A stretch of 64,000 nt of DNA, from positions 248,001 to 312,000 of the forward strand of contig JAUIJE010000005.1 in NCBI GenBank assembly GCA_030431455.1. The letters are read 5' to 3'. The translations under genes and the position numbers were made by a program. The DNA is from a bacterium. Lineage in GTDB: Bacteria; Myxococcota; UBA727; JAUIJE01. The stretch's first letter is position 1. Every line of letters begins with the position of its first letter. This document shows positions 24,007 through 61,314 of the stretch, piece by piece. A model generated the notes under the pieces. That model did no database searches and had not been told where the DNA came from. It worked only from the letters and a program-made list of their open reading frames with translations.

Positions 24007-25049
24007 AGCCGGCGCCGCACCGAGGCCTGCTTGCGGGCCTTGTACTCGTCGTGGCTGTTCTCGCCGTCCTGGTTGCCCGCGTCGGTGTGCTGGTCGACGA
24101 CCTGGAACTCCGCCAGGCCGAGCACCACCGGGCCGAGGTCCTTGAGCCACTCGCCGGCGAGGATGTCCTCGGGCACCCGGACGGGGACCTCGGCCACGAA
24201 GTTGATCACCTCAAAGCCAGGGCCCGAAAACTCATTGAACGGCCGCCGCTCGTTGTCCTCGACCCCGAGCTTCACCTGGAAGGAATCAGCCACATTGCGG
24301 TAGGCCTGGTGGCTCTCCACCAATGCGGTGAAGTTGATCAGATGGTTGACGGTGCTGCCCGGGACCACATAGTTGAAGGGCACAAGGTGCTGGGCGATCT
24401 CGTGCAGCAACGGGATCAAGTCGCCCTTTTCCTCGACGACGAAGCGGAACCGGATGCGATCGCGAATGGCGGCGGCGTGGGTCTCTTTTTTGACCAGCAG
24501 CTTGGTGATCAGGCTGGCCATGCCCTTCTCGCCACCGGTGGCGCTGACCAAAGGGAAATCTTCGCGCTGCAACCCCTCGACGAACTCGAGCACCCGCGCG
24601 CTGATCAGGCCCGCGATGTCCGACTGGGACATCGGCAAGCGGTACCGCAGCTCGCGCGCCTCGATGTGGTGGATGATGTGCGCGACCTTGAGAACGCGAC
24701 ACGCGGCCTGCTGCTCGGGCAACGAACCCGCTTGGCGACAGGCGTACAGGAACACGTCCGCGGCCTCGGCCTCCTTGACCGTGCTGGGGAGCCGGTCGTG
24801 CAAGGTCTCCTCGAGGTAGGCCGCGGCCCGCTGCACCAACCCGCGCAGCCGGGCACGGTCCACCGCGGTGGCGGGGTCGAACTGGTGCACCCGCAAAAAC
24901 GCATCGATCTGTTCGCGGGCGGTGTAGTTGAGGCGGGTCCAGTCCACCACCGAGCCCCCGCGCAACATGAGGCGCACCTCCTCGAGGTGCGCCAGCGAGA
25001 GCACCGAGTCGCGGGCTCGCACGCGACGGTCCGGGCCGCGGTAGGTCAC
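23961..25049 (-). CDS. Conserved myxobacterial-type protein (TIGR04552-like), coupled to gltJ
   Basis: The 362-residue product lacks a signal peptide and membrane helices. Residues about 15-165 are mainly helical (LYACRQAGSLPEQQAACRVLKVAHIIHHIEAREL). About 170-325 are mixed alpha/beta, with IRFRFVVEEKGDLIPLLHEI and a VPFNYVVPGSTVNHLI segment. The C-terminus is a charged, disordered-looking tail. It resembles my memory of the Myxococcales family TIGR04552, which has no known function. The GTG start overlaps the gltJ stop (GTGA), so it is translationally coupled to the last gene of the glt locus and may belong to that system. The downstream end overlaps the exonuclease gene tail to tail. Confidence 0.75.
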   Translation of the reverse strand: MTYRGPDRRVRARDSVLSLAHLEEVRLMLRGGSVVDWTRLNYTAREQIDAFLRVHQFDPATAVDRARLRGLVQRAAAYLEETLHDRLPSTVKEAEAADVFLYACRQAGSLPEQQAACRVLKVAHIIHHIEARELRYRLPMSQSDIAGLISARVLEFVEGLQREDFPLVSATGGEKGMASLITKLLVKKETHAAAIRDRIRFRFVVEEKGDLIPLLHEIAQHLVPFNYVVPGSTVNHLINFTALVESHQAYRNVADSFQVKLGVEDNERRPFNEFSGPGFEVINFVAEVPVRVPEDILAGEWLKDLGPVVLGLAEFQVVDQHTDAGNQDGENSHDEYKARKQASVRRRLYGGGVRAASPDDAD

Positions 25050-28048
25050 TTGAGCTTAAACGGGAAGGTGATCGGCACCGGTCCGCCCGACTTGTACGCG
25101 GGGAAACGCCAGCGCTTCACCTCGTTGGTCAGGCACCGGCCCAGGGGCGTGCCCGACACCGACGACGTGGCCACCGAGACGTTGCTGGTGCGTCCGGACT
25201 CTTGCACGTTCCATTTGACCTTCACGGTTTTGCCGGTGCCGCCGTGCTTCTTCCCGCAGGAGTTGATGCGGCTGATCTTCTTCTTCACCACCGACAGGAT
25301 GTCGGCTTTGGTGAGGGACGCCTTCACCTTCTTGCGGCTGGACTTCTTCTCGTCGCAATCAAAGTCGAGCACCGGGTCGCAGTCTTTGGACGACGACTTG
25401 CGGGTGGACCGCGACGAGCGCTTTGACTTGTCGTCGTCATCGTCCTTCTTCGACGACGACGAGGCCTTGCTCTTGCTGCTGCGCGAGTGACGCTTCGAGG
25501 ACGAACGACGCCGACGGCGCTTGTTGTCGTCGTCGTCATCGTCGTCGGCCTTGGCCGCGGACGCGACCTTGGTGTCCGACTTGTCCTTGTCCTTCTCGTC
25601 CGCCTTGGCCTCCGCTTCCGCTTTGGCCTTCGCTTCGGCTTCCGCTTCGGCCTCGGCTTTTGCTTTGGCTTCCGCCTCGGCCTTGGCCTCCTCGTCGTTC
25701 TTGTCCGCCTCCGCCGCGGCCTCTCCCCCCTCGGGGGCGGGGTCGCCGGCCGGCTGCGCGCCGCTGGGATCCGCAGGCGCCTCGCCCTTGTCCGCGGGGG
25801 CCTCCGCCGCCGCCACCGCGGTGCCCGCGGGCTCGTCGCCCCCGGTGCCGAAAAACGCGATCTTGAACAGCGGGATGATCAACAGCAGCGCGAGCAACCC
25901 GCCACCCGCCAGCCCCGCGTAAAACAGCGGCGAACGCTTCGCCGGGGGCGGAGACGGCGCGAAGGCCATCGAGCCGGTGCCCGGGGGGCCCACAAACGGC
26001 ATCGACCCGGTCCTCGGCGGGGGCGCAAACGGCATCGACTGGGACGGTCCCTGGGCATACGGCATCGACGCCGACGCGGCCGGGAACGCGGCCGAACTTT
26101 GCGTGGCCGGGGCGTACGGCATCGACGCACTCGCGCCGAACGGGCTCGGGCCCGCGGGCCCGCCGTCGGCGAGCGCGGGGGAGCTCTCGTCGAGACTGAT
26201 GCCGGCCTCGGCGAGCAGGCCACTGCCGGGCGGCAGGTCGAGCCCGCCCACGCCCCCTTCGGCCGGGGCCAAGGGCTGGTCGGTGTCGTGGTCGTCGATG
26301 CGGGCGAGCTCGTCGTTGACCAAGCTCTGCAGCGCGCTGGCCGCGCCCGGGCTCCAGCCGCCGCCGCCGCTGTCCGACGACGAAGGGGCGTCCACCGCAG
26401 ACTCGGCGGCGAGCCCGGAGCCGAGGCCCCCGGTCCCGATCGAGACCGAGGCCCCCGCCGCCTCGGCGAGGTTGGCCGCGGCGTACACCTCGGTCAGGCC
26501 GTGGGGCTGCCAGTTGGGGTCGTTGCCGGGGGCGTCCGGCACCTGGGAAAACGGGTCCCCCCCGCCCGAGAACGGTGACGCGCCCACGTCGTCGATGGGT
26601 GCGCCCACGTCGAGTTCAGACAGCGAAGGCATGGGGAGCGACGAGAACAACGAGGCGAGCTCGGGCACATCGCGGGCCGCGGCCCAGTCGGGCATGCCCG
26701 ATCGCCAGACCAGCGACTCGGGGTCGACGTCGCCGCGCTGGATGTGTTGCTTGACCTCGGACAACAGCATGGGGCCGTGGTCCTCGTCGTCGATGGCCAC
26801 GTGCCAGCCATCGGTGTCCTCGGCGTCATCGTCCCCGAACCCCTCCTGCGACGGCATCGCGTCTTGCCGGAGCTGGTCCATCTCGTTCATGTTGATCAGT
26901 GCAGTGGGATTGGGTGCGCCCTGGGCGAACGGGTCCGCCAGGGGGGCGGGCTCGGGCACGGGCTCGTTCGGGTCTCCGTCGGGGAGCTGGCCGAACATGT
27001 TCGAGAACGCGCCTTCCAGCTGCAGGTCGAGACCATCGCTCCCCCCGCCCCCGTCGGGGTCAGGCATGGCCGCGGCCCCGGGATCGGGCATGGACAGGGC
27101 ATCGGGCGCGGGCGGTTCGCCCTCGTCCACCGCGGGCATCTGCCCGGCCATGGCCGCGGGGTCCGGCACGTCCCCGTCCCCGCCGAAATCACCCCCGAAC
27201 GCGGCCGGGTCGGGCACGTCGCCGTCGCCCCCCAGGTCCCCGCCCCAGGCGGCCGGGTCGGGCACGTCCTCGCCCGCGCCGCCGTCGTCGTCGTCCTCGT
27301 CGAACGCGCCCAGGGCGGTGTCCCCGCCCCCGGCGTCACCGGCCGGCTCATCGTCGGCGCTGGGCGCAAACGGGCTCGGGCCCAGGTCCGGGGTCTCGAC
27401 CCCGCCCAGCGCTGCCAATGCTGCTGCTTCGGCCGCGGCCACCCCGCCGTCGGCCTCGGTGGCGGCGGGATCGCCGCCGGCCATGTCGTGGCGGGTCTCT
27501 TCCTCGTCGTCAAACCCGCCGACATCCTCCCCACCGTCATCGAGGCCACCCTCGCCGAGCCCGTCGTCCGCGGCCCCCGCGGCTTGGGCGAGCTCCGGCG
27601 ACACCGATCCCGCGAACGCGCCGTCGTCGGCCGCCGACTCATCGTCGCTGGCCCCGAACACATCGCCGGCATCGGTGCCCGCCTCGTCGTCCGCGCCGCC
27701 CCCGAACACATCGTCGACGCCGTCCGCGGCCGCGTCCTCGGCCCGCGCCATCGACCGCAACGCCGCGGCGTCTCCGCCGCCGACCTTGGTGGGCTCATCC
27801 CACGCGGGGTCCTTTTGCCCCTCGTCGGTGCCGAACACCGAATCGGGCTGCGGTGCCTCCGCTTGTTGCTCGGTGTCGTCGACCACGGGCTCGCCCGCGG
27901 TGGTTTGTTCGGCTTCAGCGCCCGCGTCCAGAGGCCGCACGATGATCACGTGCTCGCACTTTTTGCAGCGCACCTTGACGCCGCGCTCGCCGACTTTCTC
28001 GTCGGCGATCTTGTAGCTGGCGCCGCAGTTGTCGCACTCGAATTTCAT
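25046..28048 (-). CDS. gltJ: GltJ/AgmX-like inner-membrane protein: zinc ribbon, GYF, TM, TonB-like C-terminus
   Basis: The 1000-residue product starts at ATG 28048 (GGAG upstream). Order: zinc ribbon at 1-37 (Cys5, 8, 28, 31); an acidic Ala/Gly/Pro/Asp region with three copies of a 16-residue DVPDPAA repeat (about 250-300); a GYF-type domain (about 409-465, WHVAIDDEDHGPM and MPDWAAARD); five SMPY/F-like motifs; one TM helix (about 705-733); a highly charged region; and an AgmX/PglI-type TonB-like domain (916-1000) with two Cys and WRFP. In M. xanthus GltJ joins cytoplasmic MglA/MglB to the envelope part of the gliding complex. The disordered regions appear longer than in AgmX. It is the last glt gene and overlaps the next gene by 4 bp. 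Confidence 0.87.
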   Translation of the reverse strand: MKFECDNCGASYKIADEKVGERGVKVRCKKCEHVIIVRPLDAGAEAEQTTAGEPVVDDTEQQAEAPQPDSVFGTDEGQKDPAWDEPTKVGGGDAAALRSMARAEDAAADGVDDVFGGGADDEAGTDAGDVFGASDDESAADDGAFAGSVSPELAQAAGAADDGLGEGGLDDGGEDVGGFDDEEETRHDMAGGDPAATEADGGVAAAEAAALAALGGVETPDLGPSPFAPSADDEPAGDAGGGDTALGAFDEDDDDGGAGEDVPDPAAWGGDLGGDGDVPDPAAFGGDFGGDGDVPDPAAMAGQMPAVDEGEPPAPDALSMPDPGAAAMPDPDGGGGSDGLDLQLEGAFSNMFGQLPDGDPNEPVPEPAPLADPFAQGAPNPTALINMNEMDQLRQDAMPSQEGFGDDDAEDTDGWHVAIDDEDHGPMLLSEVKQHIQRGDVDPESLVWRSGMPDWAAARDVPELASLFSSLPMPSLSELDVGAPIDDVGASPFSGGGDPFSQVPDAPGNDPNWQPHGLTEVYAAANLAEAAGASVSIGTGGLGSGLAAESAVDAPSSSDSGGGGWSPGAASALQSLVNDELARIDDHDTDQPLAPAEGGVGGLDLPPGSGLLAEAGISLDESSPALADGGPAGPSPFGASASMPYAPATQSSAAFPAASASMPYAQGPSQSMPFAPPPRTGSMPFVGPPGTGSMAFAPSPPPAKRSPLFYAGLAGGGLLALLLIIPLFKIAFFGTGGDEPAGTAVAAAEAPADKGEAPADPSGAQPAGDPAPEGGEAAAEADKNDEEAKAEAEAKAKAEAEAEAEAKAKAEAEAKADEKDKDKSDTKVASAAKADDDDDDDNKRRRRRSSSKRHSRSSKSKASSSSKKDDDDDKSKRSSRSTRKSSSKDCDPVLDFDCDEKKSSRKKVKASLTKADILSVVKKKISRINSCGKKHGGTGKTVKVKWNVQESGRTSNVSVATSSVSGTPLGRCLTNEVKRWRFPAYKSGGPVPITFPFKLK

Positions 28049-28183
28049 CGGTCGTCTCCGGTGTAGGACGGATGGTCCCCCGGCCCAGAGGGCCATTGAT
28101 GTTAACGGCTCCCCCCGAAACGGGTCAATTTCACCTCGTTCTCAACGGGCGGTGGTCCGGTTTGATCTGGCGCCTGGGCCCGC

Positions 28184-40588: not shown

Positions 40589-40598
40589 GCCCTCACGC

Positions 40599-41312
40599 TC
40601 AGAAGGTGTACTTGATGGTCGGGTACGCCATCACCCCGAATGCAAACGGGAGATACGCCCCCTGTACGGCCACCTCGAACCCCACACTGATGTGCCGCAA
40701 TAGGGTGTAGTACTCGATGCCCAACGACGCCTCCGAATGGATGCCCAACGCGAAGTCGTCGAGGAAGAAGCCGGTGATGCTGCCGGTGGCGAGCTGGGGC
40801 GGGAACCAAAACGCGAGCCCCAGGCCCAGCCGGGCGTAGATAAAGAGCCGCTCGGTGGTCACGAACGCGAACCGCGCCGACACCCCGGGCGCGAAATGCG
40901 CAATGTCGCCGGTGAGCTGCCCTTGCCGAATCAACTCCGGCTTGACCACGCCGCGGTTGAAGTTGGCGATGAGGAAACCTTCGATGTTGATGTTGTTGAG
41001 GATGTCGAAGCCGAGGCGCAGACCGAGCTTCGCGCCCGGCTGCAACCAAGTCTCATTGACCGGCGCGAACAGCCCCAGGTTGCGCACCGGCTGCAGGCTG
41101 GTCAGGCCGAGGTAGTAGTTGGGCCCCGCGTCGACCCCGAGGAAAAAGCCGCGCTCGACCTCACGAATCTCGGCCACGCGCGTATTGCCTTTGATCTCCT
41201 CGCCCTCGCGCGCCTCTTCCGCCGCCGACGGGATGTCTTGCGCCGACGCAGAGAACGCGGCCACGCTCATCAGCAGGGCAAGGGACCAAGGGGGAAGGCT
41301 CAGGGTGCGCAT
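40599..41312 (-). CDS. gltH: GltH-like outer-membrane beta-barrel
   Basis: The 237-residue product begins at ATG 41312 with a clear signal peptide (MRTLSLPPWSLALLMSVAA, cleavage after SASA). A short Glu-rich periplasmic stretch follows, then alternating amphipathic strands (GFFLGVDAGPNYYLGL; LGLRLGFDILNNINIEGF; ERLFIYARLGLGLAF), ending in YPTIKYTF with the terminal Phe that BAM-dependent barrels carry. Position between gltG and gltI matches the M. xanthus order, where GltH is one of the outer-membrane barrels of the gliding complex. It is followed 10 bp later by gltI. Assignment rests on fold and synteny more than on residue identity. Confidence 0.75.
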   Translation of the reverse strand: MRTLSLPPWSLALLMSVAAFSASAQDIPSAAEEAREGEEIKGNTRVAEIREVERGFFLGVDAGPNYYLGLTSLQPVRNLGLFAPVNETWLQPGAKLGLRLGFDILNNINIEGFLIANFNRGVVKPELIRQGQLTGDIAHFAPGVSARFAFVTTERLFIYARLGLGLAFWFPPQLATGSITGFFLDDFALGIHSEASLGIEYYTLLRHISVGFEVAVQGAYLPFAFGVMAYPTIKYTF

Positions 41313-41405
41313 GGATCCGTCCGGAGGCGTCCTGTTCGATACCACCGTCGGCCGGTTTTTTTCCAGTTCTGCCCCCGATTTACGGCCCGCGGGCACCCCA
41401 TTCGC

Positions 41406-43742
41406 TCAGATTCTGCGCGTGGCCGGGATCCAGAGAATTCCCGCCTCGAGCACCTCGATGTCCGACTTTTCCAGACGCACCTCTTTTTGCTCGATTTCGT
41501 CCAGGAGGGCGAGCTGCTCGAACTCGATGTTCTCGACCTTCTCCGCCAGCTCGGTCTCCAGCTCGTCGATGTCGGCCCGCAAGGCCGCCACCTTGTCCTC
41601 TGACTTGTCCAGGCGGGCCGCCGCCCGGGCCGACTGGCCGCGTTTTTTCACCGCGCTGGACACACTTTTGCGCCCCCCGGTGAACAGCGACCACACCGTC
41701 TCGCCCAGATTGACGACCTCCTCGGCCTGCTTGGTCCGCACCACCCCCGACAGCTCCGCGACCCGGCGCTCCTCGTCCCGCAGCTTGTCCTCGAGCCGCT
41801 CGAGCTTGGCCGCGGTTTTGTCGCGAAGCTTCGCCACCTCGTCGTCCACCCGCTCCTGGATCGCGGCCTTCACCCGCTCGGCGAACGCCTCCCGGGTCTC
41901 CCCCGCCCGGCCCGCGAGCTTGAGCTTCTTGTGCACAAACATTCCGCGGGCCTCGCGGTTGTAGATGTCCTGGACCGCGCGTTTTTCTTTGGCCTTCGCT
42001 TCCTGTTCGGTGTCGAGCTCGTCGGGGAGCGGGACAAAGAGCGCACCGTCTTCGGGCTCTTGCCGCCAGTCGTCGGCGGTGAGCGCCACCGCGTCCCCCT
42101 CCTCCGCGCTGACCGGATCGAACACCCGGACGTGCTCTTCGTCGAGCACAAACCCGGCGCGGTCCTCGTCGAACCGCAACCGCGCCCGCACGTAAAACGC
42201 CGGCCGGTACACCCCCCGCCCGTCCGGGCGGGGCGGCTCCGCCCCCTCGGCAAAACGCCCCTCGAACTTCGCCGCGAACGCACGATCCGACCGCACGAAC
42301 CGCGCCGGCCCGATGTGCGGGGCCGCGGCCAACAACCCCCCGAGACCCGCCGCGTCCTCCCCCGCGGCGGGGGCGGGGCCAGGCGCCGCCGGTGGGTTGG
42401 TCGTCGAGGCCGCCGGCTGCGCTGGCCCGGCCGCGTCCTGCCCGGCGGTGAGCTGCTCGAGTTCCACCCGGGTGAACGGCCCTTTCAAAAAACACATCGC
42501 GTGCCGGGACGCGACCACCTGCGGGGCGTCGTCTTTGACGTGCGACATCACGAACTGCCGCTTGTCCAAAGACCGCACCTCGTCGTCGAGGTCGGGCCGG
42601 CCCAGCCCTTTGAGAAGCCGATCCCGGTCTTGCTGGGTCGAGAGCCGGCCGATGCACCACAGCCCCGCGTTGGACAGGGCCTTGTAGTCGAGGTCGACCG
42701 GGTTCTGGGTCGACAGCACCACCCCGAACCCCACCGCGCGGGCCTGCTTCATCATCGTCAACAACGGCGCCTTGGTGGCCGGGTTGTGCGGGTGGGGGGG
42801 CAAAAAGCCCGCGACCTCGTCGAAAAACAGCAGCGCCTCGAGGTCGCCCGAGCCGGGCATGGTCCGGGTGTGGGCCAGGAGCTTGCCGAGCAGGATGCCG
42901 AGAAAAAACTGTCGCTCCGCCTCGCTCAGGTGGCTGAGGCAAAACACGCTCACCCGGGTGCGTCCCGGCGTGCGCCGCAGCATGTCCGCGACGTCGAGGG
43001 GGGCGCCCGCCGACCAGGTCTCGAAGCCCGGCGCGGCGAGGACCGCGTTGAGCTGCATCGCCAAGCCCATGCGGTCCTTGGGTGGAAAAAACGCGTCGGT
43101 GGGGAACACGCCCACCTTCGCAAACGGCGGGTCCACCAAGCGCAGGATCATTGTGGACAGGTCAATGTCCTCCCCCGCCGCCCACGCCTCGGACAGAATC
43201 CGGGACAGGACGATGTGCTCGGGATCGCGCACGGGGTCTTTGGCTTCGCCCAAGAGCCCGAACAGGCCGCTCACCGCGGTGGACACCAACTCGATGCGCG
43301 CTTCCTCGCCGAGGTCGCCGTCGGGCCGGGCAAACGTGGACAGCAGGTCCACCGGCCGCCCAGCCCGCGATCCGGGGGTGTACAGCCGCAGGTCGAGCCG
43401 GTCGCGCAGACCGCGCACCTTGTCCGCGTCGAGCCCGGTGCGTTCGATGCCCGCTTTCCACTGCGCGGCGAGCGCGGCCGGGTCCTGATCGCCCGCGTAG
43501 GGCGCAAAGTCCGACGCGGCGAAATCGGGGAACAGCAGCGCGAGGTTGCCGAGGTCGCCCTTGGGGTCGATGCACACCAACGGCACCCCGGCGGCGATGA
43601 GCTCCTCGAGCATCACAATGCTCAGGCCCGTCTTGCCGCTGCCGGTCATGCCCACGACCACCCCGTGGGTGGTCAGCCGGTCGGCCTTGAGGGTGTAGGC
43701 CCCGCCGTCCGCGTCGTGCCCCAGAAACAGTTGGTTGCTCAT
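41406..43742 (-). CDS. HerA-like (DUF87/DUF853 type) ATPase inside the glt cluster
   Basis: The 778-residue cytoplasmic protein has a RecA-like FtsK/HerA-clan ATPase core. Walker A is GMTGSGKTG (31-39), the KGDLGNL loop is near 61, Walker B is LLFFDE (304-309), and a sensor-type STQNP lies at 344-348. After about 440 comes an Ala/Pro linker, a beta-rich segment (about 490-590) and a long charged coiled coil (about 620-760). Clan members form hexamers that pump DNA or polypeptides. It is not one of the Glt proteins I know by name, yet it sits between gltG and gltH in the same direction with 70-95-bp gaps. GGAGGTG precedes the ATG. Whether it helps build or power the complex, or is a DNA enzyme caught in the locus, is open. 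Confidence 0.88.
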   Translation of the reverse strand: MSNQLFLGHDADGGAYTLKADRLTTHGVVVGMTGSGKTGLSIVMLEELIAAGVPLVCIDPKGDLGNLALLFPDFAASDFAPYAGDQDPAALAAQWKAGIERTGLDADKVRGLRDRLDLRLYTPGSRAGRPVDLLSTFARPDGDLGEEARIELVSTAVSGLFGLLGEAKDPVRDPEHIVLSRILSEAWAAGEDIDLSTMILRLVDPPFAKVGVFPTDAFFPPKDRMGLAMQLNAVLAAPGFETWSAGAPLDVADMLRRTPGRTRVSVFCLSHLSEAERQFFLGILLGKLLAHTRTMPGSGDLEALLFFDEVAGFLPPHPHNPATKAPLLTMMKQARAVGFGVVLSTQNPVDLDYKALSNAGLWCIGRLSTQQDRDRLLKGLGRPDLDDEVRSLDKRQFVMSHVKDDAPQVVASRHAMCFLKGPFTRVELEQLTAGQDAAGPAQPAASTTNPPAAPGPAPAAGEDAAGLGGLLAAAPHIGPARFVRSDRAFAAKFEGRFAEGAEPPRPDGRGVYRPAFYVRARLRFDEDRAGFVLDEEHVRVFDPVSAEEGDAVALTADDWRQEPEDGALFVPLPDELDTEQEAKAKEKRAVQDIYNREARGMFVHKKLKLAGRAGETREAFAERVKAAIQERVDDEVAKLRDKTAAKLERLEDKLRDEERRVAELSGVVRTKQAEEVVNLGETVWSLFTGGRKSVSSAVKKRGQSARAAARLDKSEDKVAALRADIDELETELAEKVENIEFEQLALLDEIEQKEVRLEKSDIEVLEAGILWIPATRRI

Positions 43743-43814
43743 GCGCGCCCACCTCCGGTTTCCCGTTTGGGAAACCGGTCAGGCGCCGTCAAGGCGGGCT
43801 GTCGACGAGGTGGC

Positions 43815-45761
43815 TCAGCCGGACTTTTTGAACACGAACGGGTAGTTGACGATCACGATGCCGCCGCCCTTGGGCTTGGGAAAGCGCCAGCCGCGAATCT
43901 TCCGCGCGATGCAGCTCTCCACCGGCTTGCTCTTCATGCTCGTGTCCGCGACCGTCGACGTCGTGACCCGTCCAGAACCATTGATGATCCACTTCATCGT
44001 GATCTTGCCGGACAGGCCTGGGTTCTTCACCAGCTCGCGCTCGTAGCAGTAGCGAATCTGTGACATGTGCTCGCGCACCACGCGCCGGATGATCTCTTTG
44101 TCGAGCGAGCCCATGATCATGGGCGTGCCCTGGCTGATGCCGATCTTGCGGTCGGTCTTGCCGCCCAGGCCGCCCACGCCCGCACCGTAGCCGCCTTGGC
44201 CGGTGCCGCGCCCCAGGGTGCCCACCGCGCCGATGCCGAGGGTGCCCACGCCCACGCCGCCCCCACCGGGGCCGCCGCCGCGGGTCCCCAGACCGCCCGC
44301 GCCGTAGGAGTCCGCGACCCGGCTGCCGCTGATGCCGCCCAACGCCGCTTCGAGCTCACCGCCCGACGCGGCCCCGAACAGCGAGGCCACGCCCGAGTTG
44401 CCGTCGGTGCCGAACAACGCATCGAGCTTTTGGGCCACCACCTGCTCGTCGGTGGGCTTTTTCTCCTTGGACTTCGAGGCCATGCGCCCGTCGGTCTTCT
44501 TCGCCTTCTTCTTGCCCGCTTTGCCCTTGTCGCCGCTGGCCGCCTTGGCCTTTTTGGACTTGGCCAGCTTTTTCAAGAAGTCGTTGTCCTTGGGCGGTGG
44601 CTTCAAGATCACCGTCTGGAACTGATTGATGTTGGACAGCAGGTCGTCTTCCCCGTCGTCGAGCCCGGTGGGCAACAAGAGCAAGACGCTCATCACCGAC
44701 GCAAAGGTGAACAGCGTGACCAGCGTGCTGTTGAGAAAAAACGTATCCAAGAACGGGATCACGGGCACGACTTTGGACTTGGACGCGGTCTTCACCTCGA
44801 TGGTGAGGTAGCCGAGCGCGATCTCGACCATCATCCCGTCCTCGAGATGCAACGTGCCCTGCCCCGCTTGCTTGAGGGGCATGTCCTGGCCGTTGCGGTG
44901 CACGTTGCCCGACATCTGGGGCGTGAAGTGCAAATCCCAGTTGCCGTTGGATTGGGACAGCAACGGGAATGACTGCCCCCCGCCGAACTCGTCGACCGGC
45001 ACGAACATGTCGTCGCTGTCGGTCACCCCGATGGAGAACTTCGTTTGTTCTCGGATGCGCACCACCTCGACCACGGTGCCGCCCCAGCGCAGCGCGACCT
45101 CGACGTGCCGGTTGGTGGCGGTGATGGGATCCTCGGGAATCGGCGGCAGCGGCGCCGCCATCATCATCGGTCCGGGGGGAATCACCTGGGGGGTGGGCAT
45201 CGGCGCCGCGGGCGCGGGCGCGGCCGCGGCGGTGGGTGCAGGCGCATTGGCGACCGAGTAGTCGTCACCCGATTCGAACGTGGGGCCGTCCACCACCCCG
45301 CCGGCAAGTCCTGCCGCGGGGTCGTCCTCGGGCACGAGGTCGGTGAGCGCGCCGATCTCGCCACTGGCGATGCCGGGGTCGGTCAGCACCGGGGCTTCAA
45401 ACCCGGCCGCGGCCGCGACGTGTCCGCCGGAGACCTCGCCGTCGCCCTGGAGCGCGGCGATCTCGGCCTCGTCGAGCACGATCAACAACCGCGAGTCGCC
45501 GAGCTGCACGTCGTCGCCGTGGCGCAACGTGTGCCGCGAAATCTTCTCGCCGTTGACGCGGGTCCCCTCCGCCGAGCCCATGTCGATGATCGAGACGTCC
45601 TCGTGCACCTCGATCACCGCGTGGATGCGGGAGACCTTCTTGTCCTCGAGCCGAAGGTGGGCCGAAGCCAACCGCCCGATCTTGATGATTTCGCGTTCGA
45701 AAACGATCGTGTCCTTGAGCTCGTCGCCGTGGAACACCTTGATTGCGGTTGCGCGTGCCAT
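43815..45761 (-). CDS. gltG: GltG/PglI-like inner-membrane protein: FHA, TM, TonB-like C-terminus
   Basis: The 648-residue product starts at ATG 45761 (GAGGA upstream). Residues about 5-100 are an FHA domain (IKIGRLASAHLRL, VSRIHAVIEV, SAEGTRVNG), so the N-terminus is cytoplasmic and may read a Thr phosphorylation. After an Ala/Pro linker comes a beta-rich domain (about 215-325), one TM helix (about 330-357), a Lys-rich stretch (KKLAKSKKAKAAS), a Gly-rich hinge, and the AgmX/PglI TonB-like domain (about 547-648; YCYERELVKNPGLSG, IINGSGRV, SCIARKIRGWRFP) with a conserved Cys pair. GltG and GltJ of M. xanthus are thought to reach through the periplasm to outer-membrane partners, and the sequence fits that. 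Confidence 0.88.
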   Translation of the reverse strand: MARATAIKVFHGDELKDTIVFEREIIKIGRLASAHLRLEDKKVSRIHAVIEVHEDVSIIDMGSAEGTRVNGEKISRHTLRHGDDVQLGDSRLLIVLDEAEIAALQGDGEVSGGHVAAAAGFEAPVLTDPGIASGEIGALTDLVPEDDPAAGLAGGVVDGPTFESGDDYSVANAPAPTAAAAPAPAAPMPTPQVIPPGPMMMAAPLPPIPEDPITATNRHVEVALRWGGTVVEVVRIREQTKFSIGVTDSDDMFVPVDEFGGGQSFPLLSQSNGNWDLHFTPQMSGNVHRNGQDMPLKQAGQGTLHLEDGMMVEIALGYLTIEVKTASKSKVVPVIPFLDTFFLNSTLVTLFTFASVMSVLLLLPTGLDDGEDDLLSNINQFQTVILKPPPKDNDFLKKLAKSKKAKAASGDKGKAGKKKAKKTDGRMASKSKEKKPTDEQVVAQKLDALFGTDGNSGVASLFGAASGGELEAALGGISGSRVADSYGAGGLGTRGGGPGGGGVGVGTLGIGAVGTLGRGTGQGGYGAGVGGLGGKTDRKIGISQGTPMIMGSLDKEIIRRVVREHMSQIRYCYERELVKNPGLSGKITMKWIINGSGRVTTSTVADTSMKSKPVESCIARKIRGWRFPKPKGGGIVIVNYPFVFKKSG

Positions 45762-45826
45762 GTTCTTCCTCACCCCCGGGGCCACAGGGTGTGACCCCCT
45801 TTGTGCCCCGTGGGTTCCGCCCTTGG

Positions 45827-46075
45827 CTAAAGGTCTCCGATCGAGCCCAACACTTCCCGGCGGAAGTCTCGACGAATCCGAATGAGACTGCGGTGGCGCA
45901 TCTTCTTGCGCACCTCGACATACCCTTGATCGGGGGTCTTGAGGTCCCCTTCAATGGTGTCGTCTTCGAAGTTGATCACGGTCTTGCGTTTGTAGGACAC
46001 GCCGTCGTCTTGCGCCGACGCGCCGGTGGCGAACATTGCGCCCAACACCATGACCAGACAGAGCTTTCTCGACAT
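45827..46075 (-). CDS. gltF: Small periplasmic protein, GltF/CglF-like
   Basis: The 82-residue product starts at ATG 46075 with AAGGAG five bases upstream. A signal peptide (MSRKLCLVMVLGAMFATGASA) is followed by about 60 residues: YKRKTVINFEDDTIEGDL, then PDQGYVEVRKKM and LIRIRRDFRREVLGSIGDL. This pattern matches what I remember of the CglF family of adventurous-gliding proteins. The position between gltE and gltG fits as well. It has its own predicted promoter and begins 126 bp after gltE. The mature protein is small, charged and non-enzymatic, likely a structural adaptor in the periplasm. Longer in-frame starts upstream lack a signal peptide at the N-terminus. Confidence 0.75.
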   Translation of the reverse strand: MSRKLCLVMVLGAMFATGASAQDDGVSYKRKTVINFEDDTIEGDLKTPDQGYVEVRKKMRHRSLIRIRRDFRREVLGSIGDL

Positions 46076-46092
46076 CACGTCTCCTTGCCGCG

Positions 46093-46121
46093 AGTCTAGT
46101 ACAAACGCCGCCCCCGTCGAA
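46093..46121 (-). promoter_or_regulatory. Predicted internal promoter ahead of gltF
   Basis: On the minus strand TTCGAC (46121-46116), a 17-bp spacer and TAGACT (46098-46093) lie 18 bp before the gltF ATG, so the leader would just contain the AAGGAG site. It would allow gltF-J expression apart from gltA-E. Confidence 0.55.
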
Positions 46122-46201
46122 AACCGCGGCGGTTTTGCGACGTAGGGCAATGTCCGACAACAGATGACAGCGACGACGCAGGACACCGCCCCGCCCCCGC
46201 G

Positions 46202-47698
46202 TCAGTCGTCGAAGAACGCATCGTCCTCCTCGGGCGCGTTGGTCTTGGGCTTGGACTTGGACTTCTGGGCCGGTCGCCGACGACGTTTCTTTTTGGGCGC
46301 GGGCTTTTCCTTTTCCGGGGGTGGCGCGGCCTCGGCCGCGGGCGCTTCGCTCGGTGCTTCCTCCGGGGCCGCTTCCTCGGCCGGGGCGGCGGGTTGCGCC
46401 GCGTCCTCGCCCGCTTCGCCCTCCGCGCTCTCACCGTCCGCGGCGGGGGCCCCGGCGGCGGATTCCGCCTCTTGTTGTTGCTGGGCCGCTTCGGCCTCCA
46501 TGCGCTTCATCTCCTCCATCATCCGCGCCTCTTCCGCCTTGGCTTGGATGAGCAGGTCCGCCTCGTCGAGGAGCTTCTTCGCCTTCTTGAGTTTGTCGTC
46601 GCCCACGTTCAGGTATGTCTCGAGCAACGTCTTGGCCGCTTCGGGCTCATTGAGATGCCGCAACAACAGCACCGCGAGGTTGAACTGCGCCTCGGCGTGG
46701 GCGGCGTCCAACGCGATGGCCTTCTCGTATGCGGCCTTGGCCTCGGTGAACTTGCCCTGCCCTTTGTACGCCAACCCCAAATTGGTGAACAGCGCCGGGT
46801 TGTCGGGGTCGATCTCCGTGAGCGCCTCGAGGTGAGGGACCGCGGTCTTCCAATCTCGGTTCTTCAGGGCCACGTCGGTGAGCGCGATGCGGGCGTCGAT
46901 GTGGTCGGGGTTTTTGGCGATGACCTCTTGGTACAGCACCCGGGCCGCGGCCACGTCCTTTTTGTTGGTCGCCACCACCGCGAGGGCGTAGGTCAGCTCG
47001 GGATCGTCGGCTTGCAGTTTCATTCCGCGCAGAGCGATCAACCGCGCCAACTGGTTGCGCTTGTTCTCCGCGTACAGGCGCGCGAGCAACCGGTACGCGT
47101 CCAACGACTTCGCGTCGAACTGCAGGGCCTCCCGGGCGAGTTTGGCCGCTTGTTTGGCGTCGCCGTCTTTCATCAACAGCTTGGCCAACCGGATGCGCGG
47201 CCCGACCGCCTCAGGGTTCTTTTCGATCGCCTCGACGTAGAGGTCGCGGGCCATCGCCACCTGGCCGCGGCTCTCGAGCAACACGCCGAGGTTCTCCGCG
47301 GCCACGTCGAGCTCAGGCCGGGCGTCGAACGCGGCCCGGTATGCATTGGTCGCCTCCGCGATGCGCCCTTCCCGCTCGTAGAGCACGCCGAGGTTGTACT
47401 CGGGGATGCCGAACGCCGCGTCGGCCTCCGCGGCCTTGGCCAGCGCGTCGCGGGTCTCGCCGAAGGTCTTTTGGTCCTTCTCTTTTTCGTACGCGGCCAC
47501 CGCCACCTTGAACGCCTTTTCCGCGCGGATGGTGGTGATGGCCTCGTCGTTGGCGGGCACGTTTTCGTCGACCACCGGGCCGCTGGCCTGGCCCTCATTT
47601 TGGCTCGTGGGGGGCGCGTCCTTTTTGGTGTTCTCGTCGGATGAGCTGCAGGCGGTGGCCATCACCGCGACCAGGCCGAGGGGCAATACACGGTTCAT
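46202..47698 (-). CDS. gltE: GltE/AglT-like TPR lipoprotein
   Basis: The 498-residue product is a lipoprotein (MNRVLPLGLVAVMATAC, lipobox ATAC, Ser at +2 so probably outer-membrane directed). Residues about 50-370 are eight to nine TPR units (YNLGVLYEREGRIAEATNAYR; AENLGVLLESRGQVAMARDLY; TNLGLAYKGQGKFTEAKAAYE). A Glu/Ala helix, then a Pro/Ala/Glu region and a basic stretch (KKKRRRRPAQKSKSKPK), finish with an acidic EEDDAFFDD tail. GltE (AglT) of M. xanthus is a TPR protein of the gliding complex, and synteny here is exact. The ATG overlaps the gltD stop by one base (TGATG), so translation is coupled. Confidence 0.85.
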   Translation of the reverse strand: MNRVLPLGLVAVMATACSSSDENTKKDAPPTSQNEGQASGPVVDENVPANDEAITTIRAEKAFKVAVAAYEKEKDQKTFGETRDALAKAAEADAAFGIPEYNLGVLYEREGRIAEATNAYRAAFDARPELDVAAENLGVLLESRGQVAMARDLYVEAIEKNPEAVGPRIRLAKLLMKDGDAKQAAKLAREALQFDAKSLDAYRLLARLYAENKRNQLARLIALRGMKLQADDPELTYALAVVATNKKDVAAARVLYQEVIAKNPDHIDARIALTDVALKNRDWKTAVPHLEALTEIDPDNPALFTNLGLAYKGQGKFTEAKAAYEKAIALDAAHAEAQFNLAVLLLRHLNEPEAAKTLLETYLNVGDDKLKKAKKLLDEADLLIQAKAEEARMMEEMKRMEAEAAQQQQEAESAAGAPAADGESAEGEAGEDAAQPAAPAEEAAPEEAPSEAPAAEAAPPPEKEKPAPKKKRRRRPAQKSKSKPKTNAPEEDDAFFDD

Positions 47699-50600: not shown

Positions 50601-51138
50601 TCAGGACCGCGTCCCGCACCCAGTCCTTGGACTCCGCGAGCTCTGCGTCGCGCTTGGCGAAGAGCTCTTGGGCCGCGGCCTTGTCCCCTTCGTTTTGTTT
50701 GACCTCGCCCCGGTCCTCTGCCCCCATGCCTTCAAAAAAGTGGAACTGGCTCTCCTCGAGGTACAGCTCGGCCTTCTGAAACAGCAGCTCCGGCTTTTCC
50801 GTGTCCGGCGGGTTCTGGGCGAGGATGGCGTCGAGGTAGTCGATCAGCTCTTTGCGTTTGGCCGCGACCTGCAACTCGACGTCGCGCCGCGCGAAGTCGT
50901 CCAGCTTGAGGGTCGGCGCGTCCTTGGTCTCGACCTTCTCACGCGCTTTCTCCTCGACCACGGTGGGTACGCGAGACTCTCGCTCCTCGCGGGCTTTCTC
51001 CGCCGCGGCCTCGGCCTCGGCATCCGCCTCGGAGCGATCACGCGCCCCGGCCGTGCTTCGAGACTTCTTCTTTTGGGCCAGCGTGGGACTGGACGTGACC
51101 ACCGCAACGCCCAAGGCCACCAGCATCCAGCGCTTCAT
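47698..51138 (-). CDS. gltD: GltD/AgmU-like large periplasmic TPR protein
   Basis: The 1146-residue product starts at ATG 51138 (AGGAGAGG upstream) with a signal peptide (MKRWMLVALGVAVVTSSPTLA). A charged region (about 25-95) precedes a long TPR/HAT-like solenoid (about 100-1040) with recurrent LYxxxxYxxAVxxYRxIIKDFPKS-type units, as in periplasmic TPR scaffolds. The C-terminal 100 residues contain a Pro/Thr linker and an acidic Gly-rich tail ending DGFDFDEGEI. M. xanthus AgmU/GltD is a similar-sized periplasmic/cytoplasmic TPR protein of the gliding complex. It follows gltC by 131 bp and is coupled to gltE. The tail FDF motif recurs in GltC. Confidence 0.85.
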   Translation of the reverse strand: MKRWMLVALGVAVVTSSPTLAQKKKSRSTAGARDRSEADAEAEAAAEKAREERESRVPTVVEEKAREKVETKDAPTLKLDDFARRDVELQVAAKRKELIDYLDAILAQNPPDTEKPELLFQKAELYLEESQFHFFEGMGAEDRGEVKQNEGDKAAAQELFAKRDAELAESKDWVRDAVLIYQEIEESYPQFERMPEVLYALGRAFWEVQSYRKALPVYRRIIKDFPKSQYVADAWLAFGEYYFELAPKKDRDVHKALNAYKEAAKFEDNPIFGYAIYKQGWCYYNLGTVSDYKTSAEKFKEVVLYSDLNADLLGTRRITLAREARKDYVLAYSHYGDPRQAKAEFEAIAPEASDRKKMLEKLGDIYYGDGKDRPAIIIYRELMKMDPNNTRNPLYQGKIVKLASRIGQKRQVVAHARKLVEEYKRVRDVFANTKEGSPDYDRIQGDLEAADEVSDNTLRFLATTWHNEAKKTRDDSTFEYAYELYGDYLDLFPKRKEAYEIRFFYAELLYRLEKFEQAGEQYLTVYQQAPKGKWAAASAEEAVRAYEEVVKDYNRANKPKPPSGPNALDPQPIPDVKKKFVAACNNYVENYPEGELVIEAKYRIARVLYDYNYFDKAVPRFLDIIKNHRTHARAEQSANLVLDTFNIREDWAGLNETAREFSKNKTLMKNDEFKTVLLQVLEESSFKLISDYEKGKEFEEAAKRYLAFADEFPKSALADKALANSAAMFSRAGQLDRAIKVRIKLINEYPDSPLLADQIFSVASSFEQIVDYRRAADWQEKFVEKYPKDPRSKDALYNASIYRQGVGQIKQAIEDREKYIKEYGQSKDAVDIAYSIPTAWEEAGKEDEAIDAYLAFAQQWRKKEPAKSLVAQYKAVRLLEDERGRKNKKRFEREKNNLRGYAKAYQRSGKPATDAAEPLGYLAFEDADQVFERFQGLQIAPPDNVKKFQKTLQDKRKSSEGVYEAYTKVVKLGDPEWAVASLYRIGMTHQHLVDAITAVPAPKGLTDEQSQLFADKLAEQTLPIEEKAADAMVLCLDESARFGVFNKWTRNCLSFLESRRPDMFPKNDLELRVEFKVDRPFKGRGNGLIIALPKKGQRAETDNGSAPPVPAPSTEPITVVREDKTKAAEPDGEGGEDGFDFDEGEI

Positions 51139-51269
51139 AAAACCTCTCCTCAAACCTCAAGTGATCCACGCCACTCGGCTCTGAGCCTAACGCAGGGGGT
51201 GTCAAACCGCGCACTTTCGACGCCGGGTCCCCGACGAGAAACACATCACCCGACATGTCACCCAAACGC

Positions 51270-53399
51270 CTACTCGACGCGGTTTTCTTCCTGGGGCCGA
51301 CAGCTCTTGGTCAGGGTGTAGCGATACGTCCCGAGTTCGTCCCGCCAGTACTCCCCGACGAAGGGCCAGTACACCCGCTCGTCGTCGGTGGCGGTGGTGA
51401 ACCCGAGCTCGTCGAGGGGGATGGCCTGCGTCTCGCCGGACAGCTGGGCCTCCAGTCCCTCTTTGACCTGCTTGGCGATCTCGAACTGGATGCGGATGAG
51501 CTTGGCCTGCAGGTCTTTGAGGAAGGCCCGCTCCGCGGACAGTTTGGCTTTGAGCAAGCTGCCGACCCCGTCGACGAGGTTGGCCTTGCGTTGTTCGACG
51601 ATCTGCACGAGGGCCTGGTGGGCCTCGCTCCCCCCGAACGGCTCGGGCACCGCTTGGAGGGCGGTCAGCTCCTCGTCGACCTCGGCGATGGCCGCGGTGA
51701 ACACGTTGAGGCGCCGGTCGGACAGCGCCAACCGCACGAGCTTGGCCGTCACCGCCAATGATTGTGCATCGTCGTCCCCGCCTTCGCTCACCTTTTGTTT
51801 GAGCGCGGTGAGCTCGTTGTACAGCTCTTGGGGGGTCTTGTTCTCGCTCGCGAGCCGGTCGAGCTCGGCGATGACCCCGTCGTACTTCTCTTTGAACTCC
51901 TCGAGGAACGCCTTGGCCTCGGGGTAGCGGCAGTTCTCGTAGAACGTGATGGCCTTGAGGATGTGGCTCTCGGGGTAATACTCGTCGACAAAAAACGGCG
52001 ACTGAATGGTCACGAGGTTGCCGAGCGACTTTTCGTATTCGCCGAGCCGGAAGTGGGCCCAGGAGGACTCGAACAACGCGTCGAGCCAGCGCTCCGAGTC
52101 GCGGTCGATGCGCTCGTAATAGAAGATCGCGTAGCGGAACTGCTCGAACTGGTAGTGAATCCGCGCGAGGGAAAAGAACGCCATCTCCCGGAGCTTGGGG
52201 GCCGACACGGTGCCGTTCTCGGGGTGGGTCATGCGCACCACCTGTTGGAAGGCATCGACCGCAGGCTCGAACTTCCCCTGCGCGTACAGGATCAACCCCT
52301 TGAGATAGAGCGCTTTGACGTACAGGGCGAAGCCGTCGGAGACCTGCTCGCTGTGCGTCAACGCGCGCTGCAGGGTCTCGTCGTTGGACAACGCGGTGGC
52401 CGCGGGCGGGGGCGTCGGGGCCGCGGCCGCGTTTTCGTCGGGCGCGACCTCGGTTTCGGGTTCGCCAAAGGAGAACGCGGCCCCATCGCCAGGCAACGCG
52501 GCGTCCTCGGATTTGTCGCCTTTGTCCTCGTCGTCCTTGTCGCTCGCGCTCTTTTTCTTCGAGCGCCGCTTTTTCCGCTTCTTGCGTTTCTTTTTCTTCT
52601 TCTTGCTGTCGTCTTCATCGCCGAACGAAAAATCAAAGCCGTCGTCGTCGGCGCCGCCCAGGTCGTCGGTCGAGAAGTCAAATCCCTCGTCGTCCTCTTC
52701 GCCTTCGCCCCCGCCCTCTTCCGCGGGTTTGTCGGCGTCGCCGGGCTCGCCGATGTCGTCGACAGAGAAGTCCAACGGGTCTTCACTGGGGGTGTCGTCC
52801 TTGGCCGCGTCCCCGCCCTCCACCGCCCCTTCATCGAAGGTCATGCCATCGGCGTTGTCGCTCGCGGGGTCCTCGGACACGGCGGTGGCCGCGTCCGACT
52901 GTTGGCGCAGGGAGGTCTCGAAATAGAACCGGGCCAGCTGGTAGTTGAACTCGTCTTTGAAGTCGGGCGGCAAGTCCGCGGGTTTCGCGTACCGCGCGAT
53001 CTCCGCCACCGCGGCGTAGTTGTCTTGCATCCGGCGCGCGAGGAAGAACAACCAATCGCGGCTCTTGTCGAAATACTTGTGCTTGTCGCCCTGGGCGAGG
53101 ATCGCGCGGTAACGCTCCAGCGACGCGTGGAACAACCCCATCCGGTACAGGGCCTTGGCCGAGTCGTATTCCGCGTCCTGGTGGAACTCTTTGGCCTCTT
53201 CGTCTTTCAGCAGCTCGTCGTACGCCGCCAATGCCTCAGGATAACGCTCCTGGTTGAGCAGCGCCCGGGCCGCGTCGTACCGACCTTCGTCGGCTTCCTT
53301 GACCTCGGCCTCCATCATCTCGAAACCGAACTCGTCGTCCTGGGCCGACGACGACGACGCCAAGAACAACAACCCGAGGCTGACGATCCGCACCCTCAT
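51270..53399 (-). CDS. gltC: GltC-like periplasmic TPR-type protein
   Basis: The 709-residue product has a signal peptide (MRVRIVSLGLLFLASSSSAQ). Residues about 35-170 are TPR-like (YDAARALLNQERYPEALAAYDELLK). About 175-330 is a disordered insert, first acidic with LDFSVDD, GFDFSTDD and GFDFSFGDED motifs, then polybasic (about 20 Lys/Arg with few interruptions), then acidic again. About 345-600 resumes TPR units (ALYLKGLILYAQGKFEPAVDAFQQV), followed by a helical domain and a beta-like end with WPFVGEYWRDELG. GltC of M. xanthus is a soluble periplasmic gliding protein of similar size. The ATG overlaps the gltB stop by 4 bp. Confidence 0.8.
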   Translation of the reverse strand: MRVRIVSLGLLFLASSSSAQDDEFGFEMMEAEVKEADEGRYDAARALLNQERYPEALAAYDELLKDEEAKEFHQDAEYDSAKALYRMGLFHASLERYRAILAQGDKHKYFDKSRDWLFFLARRMQDNYAAVAEIARYAKPADLPPDFKDEFNYQLARFYFETSLRQQSDAATAVSEDPASDNADGMTFDEGAVEGGDAAKDDTPSEDPLDFSVDDIGEPGDADKPAEEGGGEGEEDDEGFDFSTDDLGGADDDGFDFSFGDEDDSKKKKKKRKKRKKRRSKKKSASDKDDEDKGDKSEDAALPGDGAAFSFGEPETEVAPDENAAAAPTPPPAATALSNDETLQRALTHSEQVSDGFALYVKALYLKGLILYAQGKFEPAVDAFQQVVRMTHPENGTVSAPKLREMAFFSLARIHYQFEQFRYAIFYYERIDRDSERWLDALFESSWAHFRLGEYEKSLGNLVTIQSPFFVDEYYPESHILKAITFYENCRYPEAKAFLEEFKEKYDGVIAELDRLASENKTPQELYNELTALKQKVSEGGDDDAQSLAVTAKLVRLALSDRRLNVFTAAIAEVDEELTALQAVPEPFGGSEAHQALVQIVEQRKANLVDGVGSLLKAKLSAERAFLKDLQAKLIRIQFEIAKQVKEGLEAQLSGETQAIPLDELGFTTATDDERVYWPFVGEYWRDELGTYRYTLTKSCRPQEENRVE

Positions 53400-54379
53400 G
53401 GCTCCACCACCCGGGCGCCCTCGTATTTGTACTCAAAGTCGAACGGCAAATAGAAGCCGACCCCGACGTGGAGCATGGCCAGGTGACGCACCGGCAGCTG
53501 CGAAATCTTCCGCGGCGGGAACAGCGCGTCCCCGAGGCGGGGGTAGAGGTAGTTCCGGATCTCGGCCCGCAACACCATCCACTTGAACAAGAAGATGCGA
53601 CCCCCGAAGCCGATCTGGGCCGCGGGGTCGATGTTGGGCACGTACACCTTGTACGGCGGGGCGGTCTGGCCTGGCTCCACCCCGCGCGGGTCGCGCAAGA
53701 ACGGGTGGTCGAACAGCGCCGGCAAGTCCATGCCCCAAAAGGTCTGCCCGGAGTTTTCCAGGATGCCGCCCACCCCGGCGGTGAGGAAGGTGTCGAAGTG
53801 GACGGTCCATTCGCTCATCAGGGCGAACTTCCCGTACACCGGCGCAAAGTTGATCCCGGCGTCCGCGATGCCCCAGACGAAAAACTCGTCGACGATGGGG
53901 TTGAGCTGTTCGCGCACGGTCCGGACCGCGGGGAGCGCGAAGGGCCAGATGTTCATGTGGGCGCCGAAGTCGAGCGACAGACTCTCGAACAGGTGATAGC
54001 TGGCGCGGCCCCCGACGGTGGAGCGCAGGAAAAACGCGTCGTTGACGCTGACCCCAGCCAACGGGGCGAGCTCAAACCGGCCCTCGCGCACAAACACTTT
54101 GCGGCTGACCGCGTCGATGCGTTCTTTCAGCGTCGCGCCGGTGCCCTCGCCCACACCCTCGGCGGTGCCGGAGAACGAGCCGCCGTCGCCGGGGGCATCG
54201 TCGTTGGCGGCGTTGCCGGGGGAGGCAGCGCCGGGGTCCCCCGCGGGCGTCTCGGCCGGCGCCGGGGTCTCCGCTTCCGCCGGAGCCGGGGTCTCCGCCG
54301 CGGCGGCGCTTTCCCCCTCTTGTCCCCAGGCGGCGGGCGCGGCCAACACCAAGGCGAGAACGATGGATCGCATCATCAT
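53396..54379 (-). CDS. gltB: GltB-like outer-membrane beta-barrel
   Basis: Up to 327 residues. Three ATGs in a row (54379, 54376, 54373) overlap the gltA stop; the third sits seven bases after GAGG and may be the real start. A signal peptide (SIVLALVLAAPAAWG) is followed by a Pro/Ala/Glu linker, then IDAVSRKVFVREGRFELAPLAGVSVNDAFF and a barrel of alternating strands ending FDFEYKYEGARVVEP. Its conserved opening and ending match the adjacent GltA, so the two are tandem paralogues. M. xanthus GltA and GltB are also related outer-membrane barrels. Overlaps at both ends imply tight co-translation with gltA and gltC. Confidence 0.78.
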   Translation of the reverse strand: MMMRSIVLALVLAAPAAWGQEGESAAAAETPAPAEAETPAPAETPAGDPGAASPGNAANDDAPGDGGSFSGTAEGVGEGTGATLKERIDAVSRKVFVREGRFELAPLAGVSVNDAFFLRSTVGGRASYHLFESLSLDFGAHMNIWPFALPAVRTVREQLNPIVDEFFVWGIADAGINFAPVYGKFALMSEWTVHFDTFLTAGVGGILENSGQTFWGMDLPALFDHPFLRDPRGVEPGQTAPPYKVYVPNIDPAAQIGFGGRIFLFKWMVLRAEIRNYLYPRLGDALFPPRKISQLPVRHLAMLHVGVGFYLPFDFEYKYEGARVVEP

Positions 54380-55185
54380 CCCTCCACCACCTTGGCCGCG
54401 ACGTACTCGTACTCGAAGCCAAACGGGAAATAGATGGCGAGGCCGACGTTGAAATAGAGGAGGTTTTGCAGGGTCGAAATGCCACTGCGCCACTGCGGAT
54501 AGAAGTAGTCGCGCACGTCGGCGCGGATCACCAACCAGTCGGTGACAAACACCCGCCCGCCGATGCCGAGTTCCACCGCGGGATTCACGCCGGGGAGAAA
54601 CTCCGGGAGGGTCTGGCCAAAGAACGCGTAGCGATTGGAGTCGACCACCACCCCGAGGCCACCGCTCATGAAGCCGTCGAAGTGCAAGATCCAGTCGTCT
54701 AGGATCGCGAACTTCCCGTAGATGGGAGAGAACGTGAACCCGGCGTCGAGGTTGCCGAACAGCACCGCCTCGTCGGGGATCGCGCTCTGCTGCCGCTTGA
54801 CGATCTCCACCGAGGGCAGCTCGAGGGTCAGGAAGTTGAAGCCCCCGCCCACGTCGACCGACAGCGAGTCCACAATGTGATAGGAAAGCCGCAGACCGCC
54901 GTTCCAGTGTTGGAAAAATGCGTCGTTGGTGCTCGCCCCAATGAACGGCGTGGCCTCAAACCGGCCTCGCTTGAGGAATGTCTTGCGGCTCACCGCCCGG
55001 ATGCGGTCCGCTTGGGTGAGGTCGATGGCCGACTCGTCCGCCTTCTCCTCGGGCGCGGGCGCGCTCCCGTCGCTGGGCGGACGTGAGAGCCCGTCCGCGC
55101 CTTCCGTAGGTGCGTCGTTCTGCGCGAAGGCCAAGGAGGCCCACAGCGACGTGGCGGCGATGATGCAGACTGCGCGCGCGAGCAA
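54376..55185 (-). CDS. gltA: GltA-like outer-membrane beta-barrel, first gene of the glt locus
   Basis: The 269-residue product starts at TTG 55185, four bases after GGAGG; no ATG fits the signal peptide (ARAVCIIAATSLWASLAFA). A Pro/Ala/Asp linker precedes IRAVSRKTFLKRGRFEATPFIGASTNDAFF, shared with GltB, and strands such as LRLSYHIVDSLSVDVGGGF and FGGRVFVTDWLVI-like pairs, ending FGFEYEYVAAKVVEG. It is the most upstream gene of about 30 kb of same-strand glt genes, preceded by the divergent CglC-like lipoprotein gene. The role by homology is an outer-membrane barrel of the gliding transducer. The weak TTG start could limit how much is made. Confidence 0.78.
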   Translation of the reverse strand: MLARAVCIIAATSLWASLAFAQNDAPTEGADGLSRPPSDGSAPAPEEKADESAIDLTQADRIRAVSRKTFLKRGRFEATPFIGASTNDAFFQHWNGGLRLSYHIVDSLSVDVGGGFNFLTLELPSVEIVKRQQSAIPDEAVLFGNLDAGFTFSPIYGKFAILDDWILHFDGFMSGGLGVVVDSNRYAFFGQTLPEFLPGVNPAVELGIGGRVFVTDWLVIRADVRDYFYPQWRSGISTLQNLLYFNVGLAIYFPFGFEYEYVAAKVVEG

Positions 55186-55806: not shown

Positions 55807-55921
55807 CTGTTGTGATCCGCCTCAGATCGCTTTGGGCACCCGATCGTTCATAATCTCTCTATGGGATGAACTTCCCGCGGTTCTCGGTTGTCACAAACGC
55901 ACCGAGAGAGAGGCACCAGAG

Positions 55922-57340: not shown

Positions 57341-57375
57341 TCGGCCCTGTCCCCCCCCGTTTGAGGAGTACCGCC

Positions 57376-58617: not shown

Positions 58618-58644
58618 GCGGCCACCGTGCCCGCGCAAACGCGC

Positions 58645-58656
58645 TATAGACAGTCC
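58645..58656 (+). promoter_or_regulatory. Possible leaderless -10 box of the DUF192 lipoprotein gene
   Basis: TATAGA (58645-58650) is followed by exactly six bases and the ATG at 58657, with no Shine-Dalgarno between. No good -35 is seen 16-18 bp upstream, so support is partial. Confidence 0.35.
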
Positions 58657-61217: not shown

Positions 61218-61314
61218 GACAACTCCGGGGACCACCAAAACGTAACATACGCGCGTGGGCCTCACGAAAACCCGGCCACCTGACCGACCCCGGGCGCGGC
61301 CGGGTTCCCGCCCG

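Follow-up and report, generated by a model that had tools for sequence, protein, structure and literature searches.

The gliding transducer (Glt) of Myxococcus xanthus is encoded in two clusters, G1 (gltD-J) and G2 (gltK, gltB, gltA, and gltC with the locus tags 2538, 2539, 2540, and 2541, respectively), and AglRQS is its motor (PMC3169522); this motor is proton-driven (PMC13104615). In four Anaeromyxobacter, by contrast, Luciano et al. (2011, PMC3169522) described the homologs of G1 and G2 as lying together. The locus described herein is located in a window (the whole stretch of DNA analyzed: 64,000 nucleotides of contig JAUIJE010000005.1) from a draft genome of Myxococcota (28 contigs, 97% complete). 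Ten genes in the window belonged to the same families as those of M. xanthus and were placed in the same relative order, GltI was equal in size, and the motor was encoded apart. On the other hand, the window differed from M. xanthus in that G1 and G2 were joined, an ATPase gene was located between gltG and gltH, the barrels did not correspond 1:1, GltG and GltJ had diverged (GltJ: 1016 aa versus 674), and no CglB ortholog was found.

The closest layout was that of Anaeromyxobacter, in which the undivided order barrels-C-D-E-F-G-H-I was found in A. oryzae as far as the fetched sequence extended; in genome G036 (family f18, listed with the Anaeromyxobacter joined locus), the undivided order continued with J and then a TIGR04552 gene. 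Unlike the window, the Anaeromyxobacter locus contained no ATPase gene in the row, and no MIDAS gene was found beside it. The spore-coat (Nfs) cluster of Myxococcus (3.94-3.96 Mb in genome G123) also contained paralogous barrels, C, D, E, F, G, and H in order, but neither GltI nor GltJ was found at this locus, and its GltD formed a separate clade. We infer that G123 is a Myxococcus from its protein lengths and gene positions; the genes present at its Nfs locus, and where this locus lies, led to that assignment.

Layout of the locus and identities of the gene products

Eleven ORFs, all on the minus strand, were found between 25046 and 55185, and ten of them were the Glt set (Table 1). The original prediction of eleven same-strand genes, running from two paralogous barrels through TPR, FHA-TonB, and ATPase proteins to a zinc-ribbon/GYF/TonB protein, was borne out: the ORFs were present and their families matched through NCBIfam and domain models. 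The GC3 values were 0.74-0.91 across the eleven ORFs, which were separated by intergenic gaps of 0-116 bp or shared short overlaps; these short or negative gaps suggest a single operon for the glt row. The likely start of the second barrel was the ATG at about 54379 rather than 54493, and that of GltH was the ATG at 41312.

Table 1. Genes of the glt row and of its surroundings in the window
Feature	Coordinates	Strand	Remarks
MIDAS/vWA lipoprotein, 508 aa	59691..61217	-	lipobox LSTSC (Cys27), DxSxS motif, Cys-rich; overlooked in the original prediction
First barrel, OMP_myx_plus, outer-membrane beta-barrel	54376..55185	-	gltB position of Myxococcus; 97 bits, cut-off 60
Second outer-membrane barrel, OMP_myx_plus, abuts gltC	53396..54379	-	gltA position of Myxococcus; 70 bits, cut-off 60
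GltC, periplasmic TPR protein	51270..53399	-	NCBIfam 518 bits, cut-off 450
GltD, large periplasmic TPR protein, about 1146 aa	47698..51138	-	1191 aa in M. xanthus
GltE, TPR lipoprotein	46202..47698	-	NCBIfam 244 bits, cut-off 225
GltF/CglF, about 82 aa from ATG 46075	45827..46075	-	NCBIfam 102 bits, cut-off 90
GltG: FHA domain, TM, AgmX/PglI-type TonB-like C-terminal domain	43815..45761	-	515 bits, full-length model coverage, below cut-off 650
YjgR/HerA-type ATPase, C-terminal coiled coil	41406..43742	-	between gltG and gltH
GltH/CglE outer-membrane barrel	40599..41312	-	NCBIfam 118 bits, cut-off 70
GltI/AgmK, giant TPR protein, 4134 aa	28184..40588	-	4132 aa in M. xanthus
GltJ/AgmX: zinc ribbon, GYF_2, TonB-like C-terminus	25046..28096	-	216 bits, below cut-off 450
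TIGR04552-family protein	23961..25049	-	4-bp overlap with gltJ

GltG and GltJ were the two products with scores below the curated cut-offs, as was also the case in most families with an undivided locus. Only 75 of the 146 Myxococcota genomes met the cut-off for GltG, and that for GltJ was reached in 66/146. Most of the GltJ model was covered; the zinc ribbon and GYF_2 were present, and the match to TonB_C was weak. GltI matched proteins at the GltI position of other loci.

The locus had been predicted to hold a complete gltA-to-gltJ set in alphabetical order. The presence of ten Glt genes in one row held, making this a real, undivided, and nearly complete Glt locus, but "alphabetical" overstates the order, and "complete" passes over the inserted ATPase gene and the unassigned barrels. 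In Myxococcus itself (G123), the barrel abutting gltC was 256 aa, the published length of GltA, and the other barrel preceded it, giving the order B-A-C, in agreement with the locus tags of the published G2 cluster. In a tree of the barrels, both of those in the window fell into one set (support 98/99) together with barrels from the same order and from one further family (f15), and without the Myxococcus barrels. The assignment of the two barrels as 1:1 counterparts of GltA and GltB was not supported by this tree, which points to a lineage-specific pairing instead. The label "alphabetical" was, therefore, dropped on the basis of the B-A-C order in Myxococcus and the lack of a 1:1 correspondence.

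Relation to the gliding machine and its paralogs

The locus probably encodes the orthologous counterpart of the gliding/focal-adhesion (Glt) machine of Myxococcus in an undivided, operon-like form, with the layout being older, the ATPase a passenger, and a nearby MIDAS/vWA lipoprotein the best adhesin candidate; this reading was drawn from sequence comparisons. In the GltD tree (IQ-TREE, 26 rows), GltD of the window clustered with those of genomes of the same order (first G053 and G037, and then G063 and G049), within the part of the tree that held the gliding GltD of Myxococcus. The Nfs-type GltD proteins (from G123, contig C28 of the window's own genome, and G040) formed a separate branch with a support of 100/100. 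Outside the window, an AglR-AglQ-AglS triplet was found in this order on contig C18 of the same genome, with identities of 49, 35, and 31%, respectively, to the G123 proteins, the lengths of which (245, 162, and 194 aa) were equal to those published for M. xanthus. An mglB-mglA pair was located on contig C8 (469991-471068).

It is unlikely that the locus instead encodes one of the related envelope machines, i.e., an Nfs (spore coat) machine or a "core complex". Glt and Nfs are paralogous, GltG and GltJ of the window scored below the curated cut-offs, and the same genome contained at least two further clusters of this sort: one of the Nfs type on contig C28 (221000-238000), in which barrels were accompanied by C, D, E, F, and G, and the core complex by mglBA on C8. 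However, the GltD tree set the window apart from Nfs with strong support, CglF and CglE scored above the cut-off, and the window contained both GltI and GltJ, whereas the examined loci of the Nfs and core-complex types yielded neither. Orthology with the gliding machine also agreed with the profile searches, in which the window proteins scored best against Glt families.

In the window's own genome (C8, 469991-483500), in G053 (contig C94), and in G123 (2.2 Mb), a set of gltC-, gltD-, gltE-, and gltG-like genes (a glt-like core complex) came directly after mglB-mglA. This arrangement was found in three families including Myxococcus, and an AglRQS-like motor was also located there in G000 and G053. 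Since mglBA adjoins this glt-like core complex, the polarity switch is linked to a motor complex other than the gliding one.

By analogy with work on M. xanthus, GltG and GltJ of the gliding machine would be inner-membrane links through which MglA and the proton-driven motor are coupled to the envelope, GltI would be a giant TPR scaffold, GltC, GltD, and GltE would bridge the periplasm, and the barrels and GltH would form an outer-membrane platform. This platform would carry a surface adhesin, and the best candidate for it is the lipoprotein with a MIDAS/vWA domain encoded at 59691-61217.

The ATPase gene and the undivided layout across Myxococcota

The ATPase matched HerA/DUF87 models and, by sequence, the solved YjgR HerA-like helicase (E 1.9e-9), and the fold of its predicted model (pTM 0.48) resembled HerA structures. 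No ATPase gene was found between gltG and gltH in any other glt locus examined. Orthologs with identities of 53% (G019 and G026) and about 41% (G063 and G049) were located amid unrelated genes; the genomes sampled for this distribution lay outside the window's own family. Because orthologs occurred outside glt loci and the gene was absent from the other glt loci examined, the ATPase gene may be regarded as an insertion on the strand of the operon, a putative lineage-specific passenger. The view that it is a hidden core component of the machine was rejected given this distribution. A working part confined to the window lineage, e.g., an energy source or assembly factor, would fit the same strand, the 72-bp gap after gltG, the Shine-Dalgarno-like start, and the high GC3 of the gene, but is quite improbable: the other sampled glt loci did without it, its orthologs stood amid unrelated genes, its nearest solved relatives were YjgR and HerA, and the known motor, AglRQS, is driven by protons (PMC13104615).

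Gene order was compared using genome positions and fetched loci. The row barrel(s)-C-D-E-F-G was collinear in 15 families (f1, f3, f4, f7, f8, f10, f11, f12, f15, f16, f18, f20, f23, f26, and f28), and H-I-J continued the same row in six of these (f4, f8, f12, f18, f20, and f26). The H-J part was relocated in two others (f3 and f28); H, I, and J had moved in G053/G037, and H-J was located about 40 kb away in G094. Anaeromyxobacter oryzae had the joined layout, and Lujinxingia vulgaris had a shorter C-D-E-F-G-I row. In contrast, gltC and gltG were megabases apart in the closed genomes of Myxococcaceae (2.92 Mb versus 6.15 Mb in G123). The two genes were on different contigs in the draft assemblies of G105 (f29) and of another family (f31), which probably also have split glt loci.

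The statement in the original prediction that M. xanthus keeps these genes in two separate clusters agreed with both PMC3169522 and the closed Myxococcaceae genomes. Its further suggestion of an undivided, perhaps ancestral, arrangement was supported by joined loci across many families versus the clear split in closed Myxococcaceae: an undivided ancestral locus is the simplest reading, with the G1/G2 split arising later and being best documented in Myxococcaceae. A secondary rejoining of the clusters in the window lineage is very improbable because, while shifts in gene order do happen (as with H, I, and J in G053/G037 and G094), the identical order was shared by many families from either side of the GltD tree and would need repeated identical rejoining, and the sampled families already suggest that undivided loci are spread over deep branches. 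Two outcomes had been named beforehand as speaking against the prediction, namely, better matches to families other than Glt and an order kept in no relative; neither was observed, as the order was retained in most sampled relatives and GltD sided with the gliding GltD of Myxococcus, away from the Nfs-type paralogs. The joined layout itself has been known since 2011; the present comparison adds that this layout is the usual one in the phylum. These results indicate that the two-cluster textbook layout is the exception and the single row the rule, and the latter provides a clean way to spot the full machine in uncultured Myxococcota. The interest of the locus lies mainly in this phylum-wide picture and in the linked MIDAS lipoprotein.

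A MIDAS/vWA lipoprotein near the locus

The MIDAS/vWA lipoprotein was encoded in a reading frame spanning 59691-62555, for which a start at 61217 was the most likely. Its best NCBIfam match was NF052240 (Bd0875-type MIDAS family adhesin) with an E of 2.5e-8 and 33 bits versus a cut-off of 700. Bd0875 of Bdellovibrio (PMC11003981) likewise has a lipobox and a MIDAS/vWA domain, but is a distant relative only by this score, and no glt linkage is described for it in the available excerpt of PMC11003981. No PDB sequence was matched by the MIDAS profile. The predicted model, of moderate quality (pLDDT 64), matched integrin I-like domains, with an E of 3.4e-4 in Foldseek and a Z of about 13 in VIA, and vWA chains of TFIIH scored equally against it; this supports a vWA/integrin I-like fold in the model, and not a function.

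A distance of 4.5 kb separated the gene from the barrels, and this interval was occupied by opposite-strand genes: at 55832-59199 on the plus strand, a vWA-domain protein, a gene without a confident match, and a DUF192 protein. Relatives of the lipoprotein adjoined a barrel or gltC in six further families (G049, G004, G021 and G006, G007, G010, and G014), and in several families, the MIDAS gene occupied the place of the first barrel. Against a baseline of roughly seven such genes in 7.7 Mb of genome, the linkage, observed in 7 of about 20 families, departed far from chance in a simple binomial (about 7e-10 at p = 0.01 or 1e-6 at p = 0.03), values that treat families as independent, which they are not, and use a distance limit set post hoc. 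The glt-linked MIDAS proteins were split between groups of the tree and did not form a single clade.

In M. xanthus, the gliding adhesin is CglB, which, similar to the MIDAS protein, is a vWA lipoprotein with a DxSxS motif; a very long branch lies between the two. We presume that a 416-aa protein of G123 at 3.56 Mb is CglB from its length, its composition as a vWA lipoprotein, and where it maps with respect to the MXAN numbers, in place of an annotated record. No CglB ortholog was found in the window's own draft genome, in which the G123 protein matched just fragments of vWA domains at two sites away from the MIDAS gene, and orthologs were essentially confined to Myxococcaceae in the sample. 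The identification of the MIDAS protein as CglB itself was rejected since its profile hit CglB at an E of 4.9e-4 only and the two were on long, separate branches. Its best match in Myxococcaceae (a protein of 404-426 aa, encoded at about 4.84 Mb in G123) was also rejected as CglB, the latter being located at 3.56 Mb and a distant relative.

Since the search for a CglB ortholog in the draft genome found none, the MIDAS/vWA lipoprotein is the best candidate for the surface adhesin. It is possible, albeit short of probable, that in Myxococcota without CglB a different MIDAS/vWA lipoprotein, encoded at the barrel/gltC end of the glt locus, serves as the focal-adhesion adhesin, that the genes for adhesin and transducer originally formed a single unit, and that CglB was a later replacement in Myxococcaceae. 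The TIGR04552-family gene was found beside gltJ in six families, including the window's own and Myxococcaceae. The MIDAS lipoprotein and the TIGR04552 protein are both offered as candidate parts of the machine because each accompanies glt genes in several families.

Two minor observations were made. A second MIDAS lipoprotein, 47% identical to that near the glt row, was encoded on contig C16 of the same genome (272327-273745). Elsewhere in the window, a Fic/DOC-family protein was encoded at 14397-15227, surrounded by housekeeping genes.
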